Assembly: GCF_000477415.1 (NCBI RefSeq)
Contig: NC_022575.1
Span: 1-64,000, forward strand
Source: Mycoplasma parvum str. Indiana
GTDB lineage: Bacteria > Bacillota_I > Bacilli_A > Mycoplasmatales > Mycoplasmoidaceae
Length of the DNA: 64,000 nucleotides
Direction: 5' to 3'
Shown here: piece after piece, positions 34,444-62,845 of the stretch
How the letters are laid out: each line of letters opens with the position of its first letter
Position numbering within the stretch: position 1 is the stretch's first letter
Program-made: the position numbers and the translations under genes
Notes under the pieces: generated by a model
What the model saw: the letters and a program-made list of their open reading frames with translations, nothing else
Told to the model about the DNA's origin: nothing
The model's database searches: none

Positions 34444-35525
34444 TTGAGGTATAGACATGGAGTTTATTTAGTAGTTCCTTTGGCTGCCGGCGGCAGCACA
34501 ACTTATTATCTTTCTTCTAATAATTGAGATTTAAATTCATCTTTTTCAAATTTTTTTAGTAAATTCCCGTGGGGGGGGCAATCTCAATAATTTCTCGTTA
34601 TGAATCCTTATCTAAAAATAAAGCTTTGCGATTGCAAGATTCAAAAGCTAAATCTTTAGAAGATGAATTAAAAATAGATAATCTTGAGACTCACCTCAAT
34701 AAAATCAATAATTTAAATAATTTGTCAAATGCGATTTTTTCAGAAGCTTTAGAAAGAAAAAGTCCAGTTTTTGATATAAAAAGAAGTATTGAAAAAATTA
34801 CTAAAGAAATAAATAAAGAAAGTGGATTATCCACAATTGATAGTGAATCTAAAATCGAGTTATCAAATTCACAAAGCAAATTAACCAATTTTAAAGAAAA
34901 CTTTAAAAAAGTTTACGATCAAGTAAAAACATGAGAATCTCGGGGAGATTCTAAAAAAATAAGACTTCAAAAAGGTTTTCAACTTCCAGAAAAAATAAAT
35001 CCACCATCTTTAGAGCAGAGAGAAGCTTTATTAAAATACTATGAAATTTTTTCTAATTTAAAAGGAAATGAAAGTGAATTTTTAAAAGGAATAGATAATT
35101 TAAATAAATATTCTGATTATCAAAAAGTTGGTGGTCAAATTCCTAGAAATAATCGAGAAATAATATCAGCTCTTAAAAAAATTGGTTGGAATAAAAATAG
35201 TAAAGTTGGTTTTGGAGAATATTTAAGAATTAAAAATCAAGAAAATGATGATCCTTTTTCTATATTGTTAGATGTCGAATATTTAAATGATTCTAGAGCT
35301 AAAGCTTTGGAATGAGAAGAAAAGATATTAGCGTTTAAAGGCGCAAATCCTTATAGTAAATGTAATTGAAAATGGAGTAATCATTATTGCTCATCGCAAA
35401 TTGAAGCATCAACAAAAAATTTTAGGGAGGTACAAGAAGATATAGAAGCACAAATGACTGTAAAAATAGCTTCTATATTAATAGAAAAAATGACAACAAA
35501 ATTAAATTTAGAAGAATTTAAATAA
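34444..35525 (+). CDS. Anchored coiled-coil protein, family A, poly-G out of frame (OFF)
   Basis: TTG 34444 opens an anchor segment (YRHGVYLVVPLAAGGSTTYYL). At the G8 tract (34571-34578) the frame runs to TAA 34588. One more G would join it to the long downstream frame (from about 34569) and give a ~360-residue protein: helical middle (SIEKITKEINKESGLSTID), NDDPFSILLDVEYL and a Cys-containing end (PYSKCNWKWSNHYCSS). The same architecture occurs at 35533, 56217 and 61781. Such tracts are classic slipped-strand switches of surface proteins. Function unknown. Confidence 0.75.
34571..34578 (+). repeat. G8 homopolymer tract in family A gene
   Basis: Eight consecutive G in coding DNA that is about three quarters A+T. 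The length sets the reading frame: 8 gives a truncated 48-residue product, 9 would give the full protein. Confidence 0.9.
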
Positions 35526-35532
35526 GAATATT

Positions 35533-36607
35533 TTGAGATATAAATATGGAATTTATTTGTTATTTCCATTATTAATTGGTGGCAATTCAATTGTTTTTTT
35601 ATTGCCAAATAATAAAAATATGAAAGGCTTTACTTCCAGTCTTTTAAATCTTGGGGGGGGGCTTTAATAATTTAGATTTTCATAATGTTTCAGGAAATAA
35701 AAGTCTTAAATTAAATAATTCTTCAATTGACAGAACAAAACTTGAGCTAGATAAAGTAGATTTAGAGAAAAAATCTCTGGAAGTCAATCTTCCGGACTAT
35801 TTGGAAAATATTAAGCTTGATTTAAAAGTAACTGGAAATCTTTCAGAAGTTGAAGGAACTCTTTCTTCAATTAATCAAGAAATTAAAAAAGAAAAAGATA
35901 TTGAGGGAGTAGGAGAAGAAAGAGAATCAAGATTAAAAGAATCTAAAAAAGAAGTTGAAAAATTTTCTGGAGATTTTAAAACAGTTTTAGAAAATTTAAA
36001 AGATTCAAAAACACATAGTCAAGCCTCTGGAACAAAATTAGTAAAAAAAAGATCTTTGCCTGATAATAATGAAGAAATAAAACAATTAACAAAAGAGCAA
36101 AGAAATAGTGTTTATCAGTTTTTTAAACAAAAATCAAATTTAGAAGAAAATAAGGAAAAATTATCAAAAAAATTGGAACAAATACAGCTTGGAGCGTTAG
36201 ATGAAAAAAATAAACTCCAACAACTTAGGGAAGTTCAAAATAAAAATGAAAGAGTTTTAAAATCTTTAGAAAAAATAAATTGATTTAGTCAAAAGAATAT
36301 AAAATTCGATGAGTTTACTAAATTTAATTACTGAGACAACAATCCATATTCAGATTTATTAAGTTATGAAGAATGAACAGAAATTAATGAAATTTTTAAG
36401 CAAACAGGCAATAGTCTTGAAGAGATGAGAAAGGATCCTTTAAGAAGAACTTGCTCTCTTTTTTTGATGATCTTTTTTTCTTCTCATGTTTGTTATCGAG
36501 GGGAAAATGATTTAAAAGAATTACAAGAAAAAATAAAAAAGAAAGTTCCTTCAATGGTGGCTTTAAGTTTATTCCAAAAAATGGGAATAAAAGTTAATGA
36601 AGAATAA
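35533..36607 (+). CDS. Anchored coiled-coil protein, family A, poly-G out of frame (OFF)
   Basis: TTG 35533 opens an anchor (RYKYGIYLLFPLLIGGNSIVFLL) closely similar to the preceding gene. At a G9 tract (35653-35661) the frame runs into TAA 35665. Losing one G (or gaining two) joins the downstream frame: TLSSINQEIKKEKDIEG, a long helical region, NNPYSDLLSYEEW and a C-terminal two-Cys segment (RRTCSLFLMIFFSSHVCYRG). Full length would be ~357 residues. It lies 7 bp after the previous copy, an apparent tandem duplication. Confidence 0.75.
35653..35661 (+). repeat. G9 homopolymer tract in family A gene
   Basis: Nine G directly after the anchor-coding part. Eight or eleven G would be in frame with the rest of the gene; nine is not. 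Confidence 0.9.
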
Positions 36608-36805: not shown

Positions 36806-37303
36806 ATGAAAAGAAATTTTGACAAATGATTTTCTAGTTTTAAAGCAAATATTTCAAATTATCAATATTATGTGGATTTTGAAAAAGTATTAAAAAATGT
36901 AAATGATATAAAAATTGAATTAAACATACTTAATTCATTATTAGGGACAAATAATTTTGAAAATGATTTTCAAAAAATTGTTAAAAAATATCCAGAAACT
37001 CTTAAATGTATACCAATATTGTTAGCTACGAGAAGACATGAAATTTATATTTCAGAGGCAGAAGAAACTTATTTATTTTCTTTCGAAACAATGAATTATT
37101 CTGTAGAAAAATATACAAATTTTATGAAACAAACAGGTTTGTCTAATATTTTTCAAAAATGTTTAATCAATAATTTATTAGATTATGTTTTGGGGGTGGA
37201 AGTTGGACTTGATTTTCATAGTAGAAAAAATAGGGCAGGTTTATTAATGGAAAAGCTTGAAAAAATGCAACAATATCTTTGAAAGAAGCTTTTGATAATA
37301 TAG
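36806..37303 (+). pseudogene. DpnII/MboI-family (GATC) restriction endonuclease, truncated
   Basis: 165 residues open from ATG 36806. FMKQTGLSNIFQKCLIN followed by NLLDYVLGVEVGLDFHSRKN and RAGLLMEKLEKM strongly recalls DpnII-type enzymes (GVEVGLD..ARKNRGG..ME), which are ~290 residues. Here the frame ends at 37303; a +1 shift near 37275 would continue only to 37368 (LKEAFDNIDKVFNIHDLEQG). The C-terminal ~90 residues are missing, so the enzyme is probably dead. A methyltransferase follows. Confidence 0.7.
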
Positions 37304-37384
37304 ATAAAGTTTTCAACATTCACGATTTAGAACAAGGAATTTTATTTAATCTTTTTAATAATTGTTAAATAAAAAAATTATTAA

Positions 37385-38135
37385 ATGAGGTCCTTAAAAT
37401 TTTGAATTAGAAACTAATACTTTATGAAATTTCCCCGATAGGGGGAATTGAGCGACTCATGATTCTAAATATAGAGGAAATTGATCTCCTTATATTCCTC
37501 GAAATATTTTATTGAGATATTCCAAAGAAGGAGATTTAGTGTTAGATCAATTTGTAGGAGGCGGAACTACTTTAATTGAGGCTAAATTACTAAATAGAAA
37601 TATCATTGGAATAGATGTAAATGATGAATCTATCAAAAGATGTAAGGAAAAAACATCTTTTGAATATGAAAAATCTAATAGTAAGGTAGAAATATTTAAA
37701 GGAGATGCTAGAAATTTAGATTTCATAAAAGATGAAAGTATTGATTTAATTTGCACTCATCCACCTTATGCCAATATTATTCAATATAGTGAAGGTAAAA
37801 ATATTCTTGAAGATTTATCTAATTTAAAAGTTTCTGAATTTTTAATAGAAATGAAAAAAGTAGCTTCAGAATCTTTTAGAGTGCTCAAAAAGAATAAATA
37901 TTGCGCAATACTTATGGGAGATACAAGAATAAATGGTCATATGATCCCCATGTCTTTTGATGTATTAAAGATTTTTGAAGAAGTTGGTTTTAAATTAAAG
38001 GAATTAATTATTAAAGCTCAGCATAACTGTAAAACTACAGGTTATTGAAAAACTAATAGTTTGAAATACAATTTTTTACTAATAGCACATGAGTATTTAT
38101 TTGTTTTAATAAAATTTAGTGATTTGGTGTCTTAG
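37385..38135 (+). pseudogene. DNA adenine/cytosine-N4 methyltransferase, frameshifted at N terminus
   Basis: The long frame holds SAM motif DQFVGGGTTLIEAKLLNR, catalytic THPPYANIIQY and the terminal LLIAHEYLFVLIK. Conserved N-terminal sequence (LWNFPDRGNWATHDSKYRGN and WSPYIPRNIL) is also in this frame but has no start codon before TAA 37394; ATG 37385 lies one base out of frame across aaaatttt (37395-37402). An internal TTG 37512 would omit conserved sequence. Partner of the DpnII-like gene. Its last 10 bases, including the TAG at 38133, lie inside tRNA-Cys. Confidence 0.72.
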
Positions 38136-56162: not shown

Positions 56163-56190
56163 TTTTTCCTCCCCTTAGGGGGGGGAAGAA
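56163..56190. terminator. C/G-rich hairpin with G8 between convergent genes
   Basis: CCTCCCC then TTA then G8 (56178-56185) can pair with one T-G wobble; T-rich on the left, A-rich on the right, so it can end pepA and the minus-strand 56217 gene alike. Confidence 0.6.
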
Positions 56191-56216: not shown

Positions 56217-57347
56217 TTATTTCCCTTGTTGAGTAAATAAAGATTCAATTTTTATTTCTTCTTCTCCGATCATTTTATTAAGCATTTTTGAACCAATTTT
56301 TAAATTGATTAATTGTTCATTCATTTTTTGAAAATTTTTCTCATCCATTAATGATGTGGAACATTCACCCGAATCATGCATGAGAACACAAACAGCTGAA
56401 AACAATAAATGTTGAAAATTATTTTTTACTTCAATATTTCTTTTAATTCTTGTTTTAGATTCTTTAATTAATTCCCATTCTTTATTATCAATCAGATTTA
56501 AATAAGGATTTTTTTCATCCAATTTTTCTTTTAAAAGTGATTGTATTTTAGTTTTATCTTTTTCTCAATCAATTTTCTTTAAAGAACTAATAATCTGTTT
56601 ATTATCTTCATTATTATTTTTTCCTTGATTATTTTTATTAATATCGGAAGATTTATTGATTTTGGATATTCTATTAGTTAATTTTTCTCTCTCTTCATTT
56701 AAGTTAGAAAATTTTTCAAAATAATTTTGCAATGCTTTTCTGTCATCTACTTTTAAATGTGAATTTTCTAAATTTCGCAATTTTAGATTTTCGTACAAAT
56801 GTTTATTTTTTAAGATGTCAAATTGTTTTATGGCCTCTATATTTTGTTTTCATTCTTGTATATTTTTTCTTGCTTTTTGAAAATTTTCAGAATGAGATTT
56901 TAATTCTTCCATAGCTTTCTTTAATTTTTGTTCTCTTCTATCATTAATTTTTGTTACTTTAGTTTCTTTATTGATTTCTTTATGAATTTTTTTAACCATA
57001 TTTTCTGTATTTTTGTTATTCATTATTTCGGGATTTTCAATTATTTTTAATAAGTTTTCGGATTCTTTTATTTGCTTAAATGCTTCATTTTGAACATAAA
57101 AATCTTTTATATTTTCTAAATTACTATTGTTAGTTTCTGATAATTTATTATTTGAAAAATTCAATGAAGAATTTTGTTTATTATCTTTTGCAAATCAATT
57201 TCTAAAGAAAGAAGAAAATTTATTTCCTAGTTTGAATTTGGATGATGAGTAGTTACTATTTGTGAAATTAGCCGTTAAAGAAGCTACTCCACTAACTCCA
57301 ATTAAAGAAAAAGCGATCAGATAAAGTTTGTGTTTTAGCTGAAACAA
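56217..57347 (-). CDS. Anchored coiled-coil protein, family A (in frame)
   Basis: 376 residues. N-terminal anchor (YLIAFSLIGVSGVASLTANF), then helical, Lys/Glu/Asn-rich segments with the family block MVKKIHKEINKETKVTKIND and ELKSHSENFQKARKNIQEW, and a C-terminal part with KNPYLNLIDNKEWELI and SAVCVLMHDSGECSTS. Homologous in outline to 34444, 35533 and 61781. No poly-G tract in the coding part. TTG start 57347; UGA-Trp codons at 57195-57197 and elsewhere. Function unknown; probably surface-exposed. Confidence 0.7.
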
Positions 57348-57411: not shown

Positions 57412-57441
57412 GAAGATAGGGGTAAGAATCCCCTACCCCCC
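57412..57441 (-). terminator. Hairpin plus C7 tract between two family genes
   Basis: TAGGGG TAAGAAT CCCCTA followed by a C7 run (57435-57441). It lies past the stop of 57548 (minus) and ahead of the 57347 start, so it may end one gene; a variable tract here could also alter expression of the next. Confidence 0.45.
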
Positions 57442-57547
57442 CTAAGGTTTAATTTATAGTTGGTTGGATTTTTTTAAAAATATAAGTTTTTTGTATTCAT
57501 ATAATTAAATTTCCATTTTTATTTAAAATTGTGAATTAATTTTTGAA

Positions 57548-58621
57548 TTATTTTTTGTTTTGGAAATTTAATTTACATATATTTGCATTAGTATTTTTAG
57601 TATTGTTACATATAGAATTTTTAAATTTTCCCTCAAAGTATTGCAAATCAATAATATTTTTCTTTAAATTTTGTAATTCTTCATAAACTTTTTCTAATTT
57701 TTGTCTCAAATTATTTAATTTTTCAATCTCTGAATTAGATTTATTTTGTAAATTTTTTATTCTATTGGCAAATTTCTCTGTTAATAAATTTAACTTAAGA
57801 ATTACATCATTATTTATGTTTCTGATAGATATTAAATTAATTTCTTTAGATATCAAATTAGTTCTCAATTGTGCATTTTTATAAAACTCTTCAATTAATT
57901 CTTCTCTTTTCTTTTTTAATTTTTCTTTGATATCATTTAATGTTTTTTTAGCTTCTAAACCACTTGAATTACTTAAGTTTGAAGAAATTTGTTGTCCCCC
58001 CCCATCCGAATTAGAAATTAAACTTGTATTTTTTGGTTCTCAAGCAATTCACGATGGATTTAATTTTTCACAATTTTGTGAATTATTTTTTTCTTTTTGT
58101 TCGCTGTGTTCAATTATGCAAATAAATTTGCTTAAAAGCTCCCCTTGACTTGAAATTAATTTTTTAATTTCCAGCAATAAAGAAACTAAATTTTCTAAAA
58201 GATTCAATTCAATTAACAAATTTATTTTTTCAGTCGTTTGTTTAGATAATTCCTGAGATATTGAATCTAAATCATTTAAAGTTTTTAAATTTTCTTCATA
58301 AAAAGAAATTAATTGTTTTTCTGCTTCAAAGATGGATTGAAATGTTTTTTCAATAATTTCATCTTTAATTTTTTTAAGTTCTTGCGCTTTTTCTTTAGAG
58401 AGTTTTAAGTTTTCAAATAATGGATTTAATAAACTCAATTGTTTATTTTCTTCTTCTGAAAAATGTTCTGTATTTTTATTTTCATAGCTAGAAGAAGATT
58501 TTTGAAAAAATGTATCTAATTTTGTATTAGTCTTTAGAAAATAAGGAATTAAAAAAGTAGATAGGCCACAAGAACTTGAAAGTAAAGTTCCAATCATTAC
58601 TATCTTAGAAAGTAGAAAAAT
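57548..58621 (-). CDS. Anchored coiled-coil protein, family B, poly-G in frame (ON)
   Basis: 357 residues from ATT 58621 (349 from ATG 58597). Anchor (LLSSSCGLSTFLIPYF), long helical halves (LFENLKLSKEKAQELKKIKD; LTEKFANRIKNLQNKSNSEI) and a Cys-containing end (FKNSICNNTKNTNANIC). A G8 tract near residue 206 encodes GGG in GGGQQ and is in frame. Its paralogue at 60626 has the same tract at the same place. The first codons (FLLSK) are conserved between the two, supporting the ATT start. Function unknown. Confidence 0.72.
57996..58003 (-). repeat. G8 tract (plus-strand C8) in family B gene
   Basis: Eight G on the coding strand, encoding glycines before QQ. The present length keeps the frame open; a change of one or two would cut the protein at about residue 210. 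Confidence 0.9.
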
Positions 58622-60625: not shown

Positions 60626-61615
60626 TTATTTTATATTTTCAATACAACTGACTTTTTGTTTATTTTCTTGTTTATACATTTCAATATTTTGACATATATT
60701 ATTTTTTAATATTCCTTCGTAATTTTGAAAAATAGGAACTTTATCTTTTAAATTTTGTAATTTTTTGTAAGTTGTTGTAAGCTGTTTTTGAAGTTCATTT
60801 AATTTTTTAATAATTTCATTTATTTCCATTTCTAAAATACGAGATTCTAGCTTAAGAGATGAAAAAAATCTTTCAAAAATACGCATTTTCAACTTTATAT
60901 CATTGATAAAATTGACGATTCTAAATTCTTTTTTTAAAAATTCTTCGCTCAAATAATTTATTTGTAGTAATTTGTTTATAGCTTTAGAATTTTCTTTCAT
61001 AATATTTTGTTTAAAATTTTGTAATTTTTCTTTCGCTCAATTTCCTTTTAAATTATTGTTATTTGATTCTTGTTGCCCCCCCCGAAAAGTTTTATTAGTT
61101 TCTGTTTCCACTATTTTATATAAAGAATCAAAAAAATTACTTCAATTGTTGATAGCTTTGTAAATACTATTTAATAAATTTATAGAATTTCTTATTGCAT
61201 TTAGAGTTGCCTCCAACTCTAAATGTTTTTCTTGGTATTTATTTATATTTTCTAATAATTTAGATAAATTATTTTTAGTTTCTAAATTATTTTTGTATAA
61301 ATCAGAAAGTTCTTTTTCTGACTTTAAAATAGATTCCAAAAATAAATTTATAGATTTATTAATTAAATCTTTAAGTTCTTTAGAATTTTTTAAAGTTTTG
61401 GATAATTCGTCATAAAGATTTAATAATTCCTTAAATTTATTTGCTTCTTGATTTTCGAATATTTGTATATTTTGATTGTTAAATTTAGATTCAATTTTTT
61501 GAAATAACTTTTTTAAACTATTGTTTTCTAGATTATAAGGGATTAAATAAACAGAAGTCCCAACTATCCCTGTAGACAGGGAAGCTAAGGATACTAACTT
61601 AGAAAGTAGAAAAAT
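60626..61615 (-). CDS. Anchored coiled-coil protein, family B, poly-G in frame (ON)
   Basis: 329 residues from ATT 61615, the same first codons as the 57548 paralogue (FLLSK). Anchor (VSLASLSTGIVGTSVYLIPY), helical halves (LESILKSEKELSDLYKNNL; LEMEINEIIKKLNELQKQL) and Cys-containing end (LKNNICQNIEMYKQEN, KVSCIENIK). A G8 tract near residue 178 encodes RGG in RGGQQ and is in frame. No ATG/GTG/TTG before the anchor. Function unknown. Confidence 0.72.
61076..61083 (-). repeat. G8 tract (plus-strand C8) in family B gene
   Basis: Eight G on the coding strand at the same site as in the paralogue (before codons for QQ). Present length is in frame. Confidence 0.9.
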
Positions 61616-61780: not shown

Positions 61781-62845
61781 CTATCTAGATTCTTCTATTT
61801 TTAATTGACCCATTTTTTTCAACAAATTAGTTGCAATTAGTAAATTCATTTCATAAAAAACATTATTTAAATTATTTTTATTATTTTTTTCTTTTTTCGC
61901 CTCAATTATTCTTCTCATATGTATTTCTCATTCAATCTCAGTATCAAATAATGCATTAAAGGGATTGTCTTCTCATTTTTCTTTCCACCCAAAACTAGAA
62001 GCTAATGATTTATCTTTACCTTTAAACAATGTTTTTTCTTTATCTCAATTAATTTCTTTTAAATTTTTTAATATTTTTTCAATATTTTCTTTTTCCCCTT
62101 TAAATTCATTTTTTTTAACTTCTTCACTATTACTTCTAATACTTTTATTTAATTTATTTTGTAAATTTATCATATTTTCATGTAAATCTATATAACTTTT
62201 TAAAAATTCTTTTAAAGCTATTTTGTGCTCTTTATTTAATTCTGTAACTTTTGAAGATCTATCTCCGTAACATAATTTATATTCCTTTTCTTGAGCAATT
62301 ATACAAATAGATGATTGAGCGCCTTTAATTTTTTCATCATAATATTCTTTTGTTTTTTTGAAAGCTTGTTCATAATGTTGTTTTTTTGTTTCTAATTCTT
62401 TTATCGCTTTTTTAATTATTTCTTCTTGCTTTTCATTAATTTTGCTTATATTATTTTCTCTCTTAACTTCTCTTGTTATTTTTTTTACATTACGTGTAAC
62501 ATCATTGAATTGTTGTTTAATTTCTCGCTCATTACCAGAAGAATCAATTAATAAAACTTCAGAATTATTAACTTGAATATTTATTGTATTTGCAGAAATA
62601 TTTATTTCTTTTGAATCGTTTAATTTCAAATGATCAGAGTTAATTTGTTGAAATTTAAGTTTGTCTTCTTGAGGAGAAGATTTCAATATTTCATTTTCAT
62701 TATTGCTGGTTGTTGAAACATTTTCTTTTAACAATGATCGAAACTCTTCTCCTTTTGATTTTCAAACAAAAGGAACTGCTGTAGAATTAGCTCCTACAAC
62801 GAAAATTGCACTACCCAATAATTTGTACTTCAGGGCCAGAGGCAT
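61781..62845 (-). CDS. Anchored coiled-coil protein, family A (in frame)
   Basis: 354 residues from ATG 62845. Anchor (YKLLGSAIFVVGANSTAVPFVW), then NVKKITREVKRENNISKINE, helical KKAIKELETKKQHYEQAFKK, and the C-terminal block EDNPFNALFDTEIEWEIHM, matching the other family A members. Cys occurs in SSICIIAQEKEYKLCYGD. No poly-G tract. Ends at TAG 61781; several UGA-Trp. Function unknown. Confidence 0.7.

Follow-up and report, generated by a model that had tools for sequence, protein, structure and literature searches.

Out-of-frame bodies at poly-G tracts in Mycoplasma parvum and related hemoplasmas, and their probable basis in slipped-strand phase variation

In Mycoplasma hominis, the vaa gene is ON with an A8 tract and OFF with A7 or A9, switching at a rate of 1e-3 to 1e-4 (PMC524362). 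Campylobacter jejuni, which lacks mismatch repair, switches at poly-G tracts at 4e-4 to 4e-3, and G8 is the low end of the hypermutable tract range (PMC4235727). For the gonococcal NgoAV system, the split form of HsdS is itself active (PMC9577141). In hemoplasmas, paralogue families have been suspected in persistence, with no homopolymer switch named (PMC3196708, PMC3146833, PMC4423628). The locus described here resembles vaa, a mollicute surface adhesin gene in which the reading frame depends on an 8-base homopolymer close to the 5' end (PMC524362). The window analyzed was the first 64 kb of the single 564,395 bp contig of M. parvum strain Indiana, read with code table 4.

Two adjacent genes with a G tract between anchor and body

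Genes 1 and 2 (34444-36607) each carry a hydrophobic anchor of 40-43 residues and a body open for 314 codons, separated by a pure G tract (Table 1). Body and anchor were one frame apart in both genes, with opposite signs (-1 at G8 in gene 1, +1 at G9 in gene 2). The original prediction had located both tracts exactly, and its frame arithmetic for a one-base offset in each gene was right; the opposite direction of the two offsets is added here. Its placement of the tracts precisely at the anchor/body junction also held, and eight further M. parvum paralogues elsewhere in the genome carry the tract at the equivalent position. The bodies are homologous (E 1e-12), and the longest open runs in 2,000 first-order Markov shuffles were 155 and 184 codons, vs. 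the 314 observed. The start and hydrophobic segment of the gene 1 anchor align with nine paralogues, and the gene 2 TTG lies 7 bases 3' of the gene 1 stop.

Table 1. Coordinates of features in the window (strand + or -; basis given where recorded).
Feature	Coordinates	Strand	Basis
Gene 1 anchor (TTG start 34444, short basic N-terminus, hydrophobic segment LRYRHGVYLVVPLAAGGSTTYYL...)	34444..34570	+	translation
Gene 1 G8 tract, anchor/body junction	34571..34578	+	same position in paralogues
Gene 1 body, -1 frame vs. anchor, intact, helical, no known domain (stop codon 35523-35525)	34579..35525	+	openness, structure, family/fold searches
TAA closing gene 1 anchor frame, three codons 3' of G8	34588..34590	+	
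Gene 2 anchor (TTG start 35533, hydrophobic segment LRYKYGIYLLFPLLIGGNSIVFLL...)	35533..35652	+	translation, paralogue alignment
Gene 2 G9 tract, anchor/body junction	35653..35661	+	
Gene 2 body, +1 frame vs. anchor, intact	35662..36607	+	openness; homology to gene 1 body
TAA closing gene 2 anchor frame, one codon 3' of G9	35665..35667	+	
Intact tract-free relative of the body family, permanently in frame	56217..57347	-	
G8, in frame, mid-gene 57548-58597, second tract-bearing family	57996..58003	-	
G8, in frame, within gene 60626-61339, same second family as gene 57548-58597	61076..61083	-	
Intact tract-free relative	61781..62845	-	

The M. parvum bodies found 3' of G runs represent a dozen or more paralogous families. 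The family of genes 1 and 2 has 11 tract-bearing members, 5 in frame and 6 out, and in 10 of the 11 the G run comes after an anchor of ~38-44 residues with a common start and hydrophobic segment. Tract-free relatives lie at 153671 and 526254, in addition to the two listed in Table 1; as these are intact, the glycines encoded by the tract are not needed for the protein. A related-loci search of genome contigs returned no relatives.

AlphaFold models of 24 relatives gave a helical body (mean pLDDT 78, pTM 0.69). There was no PDB fold match to the body at E below 1e-3, and profile and sequence searches identified no Pfam, NCBIfam or PDB family common to the 24 members. Matches to HAS-barrel, E8, ferritin and cilia proteins were weak, and were rejected as chance similarity on helical sequence. 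The lipobox cysteine of Vlp/Vsp/Vsa-type surface lipoproteins was missing from the anchors of this family, the hydrophobicity of which was modest by Kyte-Doolittle score, and surface exposure rests on such anchors. Given a hydrophobic N-terminus and no lipobox cysteine, the likeliest role is that of an anchored, outward-facing helical protein, the surface location being inferred. Paralogues with a comparable layout are expressed in M. haemofelis, one of them being immunogenic (PMC3146833).

At 36806-38135, a DpnII-like endonuclease ORF is followed by an N6/N4 methyltransferase fragment, with several frame breaks and none at long G runs. This is a decayed type II restriction system.

Poly-G runs, frame breaks and flank phase

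Long G runs were far more frequent in the window than chance would give, with 12 G7 words counted vs. 0.46 expected. Across the M. parvum genome, 90 G/C runs reach a length of 7 or more; all of them fall within the 329 kb that was read, for which base composition gives an expectation of 0.49. Run lengths were bimodal (151 of 5, 10 of 6, 15 of 7, 72 of 8 and 3 of 9). Six congeners had 137-197 runs each, vs. 10 or fewer in most other family members (highest 47). The six species of the frame comparisons below were M. parvum, M. suis Illinois, M. ovis, Ca. M. haemolamae, M. wenyonii and Ca. M. haemominutum. For stretches picked for tract richness or family matches, observed vs. expected runs were 61 vs. 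0.39 in M. suis, 51 vs. 1.0 in Ca. M. haemolamae and 57 vs. 0.77 in Ca. M. haemominutum. The original prediction was supported for the two genes and too narrow in scope, the system being genome-wide and genus-wide.

Not every run lies within a gene. The window contains four other runs of at least 7, two intragenic and in frame (Table 1) and two intergenic; the latter (56178-56185 and 57436-57442) are in or near short inverted repeats, and are probably terminators. Further intergenic runs in M. parvum were at 272809, 356376, 379439 and 415243-415258. About 20 M. parvum runs were without a long body 3', some resembling terminator hairpins. Near-identical short G8-bearing repeats with no long open body were dispersed on both strands (107530, 152758, 474310 and 110701, 317087). 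The in-frame G7 runs of dnaK and ptsI were taken as non-switching.

Runs were counted as intragenic with at least 60 bases from start to run and at least 300 open bases 3' of the run. By this rule, M. parvum had 63 intragenic G7+ runs, 44 in frame and 19 out (30%), vs. 3/66 out of frame at A8+/T8+ runs, 2/59 at G5 runs and 4.5% at random positions (Fisher 1e-4). For the other five species, 59/103 were out of frame at G7+ runs vs. 5/74 at A7+/T7+ runs (p 5e-13). OFF bodies matched ON bodies in length. The M. suis stretches read had 22 of 32 genes OFF, this state being if anything commoner there than in M. parvum.

The direction of the shift followed tract length. Across the six species, the body was at -1 in 45/45 out-of-frame G8 genes (15/15 in M. 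parvum alone) and at +1 in 18/18 out-of-frame G9 genes (Fisher p 4e-16). Of 155 genes from the six species, 77 had G8-like flanks, 76 G9-like and 2 G7/G10-like (41, 16 and 0 in M. parvum alone). The last class would be expected to hold 41.6 genes if flanks were independent, and its minimum in 20,000 permutations was 22; the 153 genes fitting the G8 or G9 class compare with ~113 expected. The family of genes 1 and 2 contains both phases, which makes founder effects unlikely and indicates that flank phase does change. The near-empty third class seems to have been weeded out, from which it may be inferred that genes currently OFF open often enough to be under selection; this inference rests on consensus sequences alone, and on paralogues, which do not count as independent samples. 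Toggling of genes between the two commonest lengths would give such a pattern, which argues against random decay and against a fixed-direction ribosomal frameshift.

In a tandem array of M. suis, genes with G9 were in frame, and most of those with G8 or G10 were shifted. Homopolymers are a weak point of 454 sequencing. As the M. suis genome was sequenced by 454 at 38.6x (PMC3091866), individual tract lengths in that species are less certain. Tract length was identical (G8) in 9/9 close paralogue pairs of M. parvum, and one close pair in Ca. M. haemolamae (G8/G9) and one in Ca. M. haemominutum (G10/G11) differed. Differences in length between near-identical paralogues were dropped as direct proof, the pairs being too few and those of M. 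parvum showing no difference. In Ca. M. haemominutum, adjacent paralogues 87% alike around the tract (347490/348558) have G11 in frame and G10 out.

Other tract-bearing families included type I specificity subunits (PF01420) and the Mycoplasma peptidase DUF31 (PF01732), to which the mycoplasma Ig protease belongs. HsdS genes of M. parvum (110882, 115316, 151722 and 152941) carry G7 or G8 between two specificity halves and are without exception out of frame at -1; an M. suis HsdS gene (519890) is split in the same way at a matching G7. Two M. parvum DUF31 genes (176691 and 323620; Ig-protease-like) have a G8 tract in frame, and immunoglobulin cleavage could be phase-variable too.

Slipped-strand switching weighed against other explanations

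The best explanation was considered, with good confidence, to be slipped-strand phase variation that turns surface proteins ON and OFF; neither reads nor a second strain were available, and switching itself was not shown. Genes 1 and 2 would be contingency loci for membrane-anchored surface proteins, each with a hydrophobic N-terminal segment and a helical body of ~315 residues. The junction tract would gain or lose single G's by slipped-strand mispairing in replication, and such slippage would go uncorrected because MutS is undetectable; MutS (PF00488) was not detected in 6/6 hemoplasma genomes and was found in 11/14 controls. Tract length would then place the body in or out of the frame of the anchor, with other lengths giving the full protein. 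In the sequenced population both genes are predicted to be OFF and to yield peptides of ~44-48 residues. The same switch may operate in at least a dozen M. parvum paralogous families and in the relatives examined, so that the cells of one blood population would differ in surface type. Slippage in vivo, like immune evasion, is an inference.

Three of the criteria of a simple-sequence phase-variable locus were fulfilled, in that intragenic tracts were far above chance, length set the frame, and ON and OFF members both had intact frames. The ON/OFF switching inferred in the original prediction is supported by the G-specific breaks, the intact bodies, the dependence of shift direction on length and the flank phase, and remains an inference. 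Counter-evidence to high mutability is that 72 of the 90 M. parvum tracts are exactly G8, as are the tracts of all nine close pairs, and the consensus looks stable. G8 may be an equilibrium length with rare excursions.

Recoding, whether the ribosome makes a programmed -1 frameshift on G GGG GGG or RNA polymerase slips, would supply some full-length protein in every cell with the DNA unchanged. We regard it as unlikely, although all 15 M. parvum G8-OFF genes share the -1 offset that a -1 slippery heptamer would give, tract length is near-constant at G8 in this species, and RNA-polymerase slippage at frameshift-bearing poly-A tracts is known in Buchnera (PMC2831843). Against FRAMESHIFTING, the identical tract is also borne by in-frame genes, and all 18 out-of-frame G9 genes, gene 2 among them, would need to shift the other way. 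Downstream RNA structure showed no enrichment at the tracts (mean z -0.41 for OFF and -0.37 for ON vs. -0.12 for random, in models without pseudoknots), and an SD-like stimulator upstream of the tract was found in 0/16. With a shift direction that flips with tract length and no structure or SD enrichment, the criteria of a programmed -1 frameshift were unmet; a fixed -1 ribosomal frameshift was dropped, as G9 genes in M. parvum and three other species are at +1 and there were no stimulators. RNA-polymerase slippage is harder to exclude than a ribosomal frameshift, yet symmetric slippage does not predict that the G7/G10 phase class should be almost empty.

That genes 1 and 2 are ordinary pseudogenes, dying paralogues frozen out of frame, is very unlikely. 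Hemoplasma genomes do carry very large paralogue pools (PMC3196708), and the decayed DpnII system adjoins the two genes; that neighbor, however, has the true pattern of decay, its several breaks falling away from long G runs. The bodies of genes 1 and 2 are open far beyond shuffled sequence, OFF bodies equal ON bodies in length, the breaks do not fall at A/T runs although these are commoner, and a bias among phase classes is unexpected under random decay. Least credible, and hardly tenable, is that the frame breaks are homopolymer miscalls of assembly. Length errors between G8 and G9 would yield the same phase classes if the true lengths were G8 and G9, and the M. suis assembly is a 454 one. 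M. parvum, however, was obtained from pig blood and sequenced by Illumina at ~1000x (PMC4423628), and 63 of its 66 A8+/T8+ runs are in frame. Miscalls would also need frequent overcalls in Ca. M. haemominutum (13 G9 genes), and would leave tract enrichment and placement unexplained.

Extending phase variation by slippage to the group is a more tentative step, which we nonetheless somewhat favor: the poly-G phasome of hemoplasmas would be among the densest known, with about sixty genes in 564 kb covering surface proteins, HsdS and Ig-protease-like proteins, moving in single-G steps and with flanks selected for the G8 and G9 phases.

Significance and comparison with known systems

It is still not understood how uncultivable hemoplasmas persist in blood and cycle there, and poly-G switches are a likely answer. 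As each gene has a defined DNA tract, switching can be checked in existing reads or in amplicons from infected blood. Many hemoplasma surface genes have probably been mis-called, which bears on the choice of antigens and diagnostics. Signal peptides were reported for 1.6% (PSORTb) and 0% (SignalP) of the unique paralogues of M. parvum vs. 16.5% and 4.25% in M. suis, a contrast discussed with the low virulence of M. parvum (PMC4423628). Gene calls starting within the body would miss the anchors of OFF genes in both species, and a re-reading of these figures is possible; any contribution to the difference between M. parvum and M. suis was not tested.

The kind of mechanism is known, and a genus-wide hemoplasma phasome appears unreported in the literature searched; no report of homopolymer (poly-G) switching in hemoplasmas was found in the open literature, subscription papers being outside the scope. 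Earlier papers on the paralogues and VNTRs of M. haemofelis, M. suis and M. parvum dealt with the same pool of hypothetical paralogues, and suspected antigenic variation. They sought tandem repeats (TRF) or proposed recombination, and homopolymer switches are unmentioned in the main ones.

Among systems outside the group, vaa differs in being a single gene with a poly-A tract, whereas M. parvum has G tracts in dozens of genes from many families. Another likeness is to the phasomes of Campylobacter jejuni and Neisseria (PMC4965091, PMC4235727), in which many genes contain intragenic poly-G, C. jejuni also being without mismatch repair. Poly-G/C of at least 7 occurs at 29 loci in C. jejuni NCTC11168, compared with the 90 tracts in 0.56 Mb of M. 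parvum, which have a tight G8 mode; unlike in those phasomes, the tract-bearing genes of M. parvum mostly encode anchored helical proteins of unknown family. The HsdS genes of M. parvum follow the layout of the NgoAV hsdS of Neisseria gonorrhoeae (PMC9577141), with a mid-gene G tract between two specificity halves, but in M. parvum these tracts are one class within a wider phasome.
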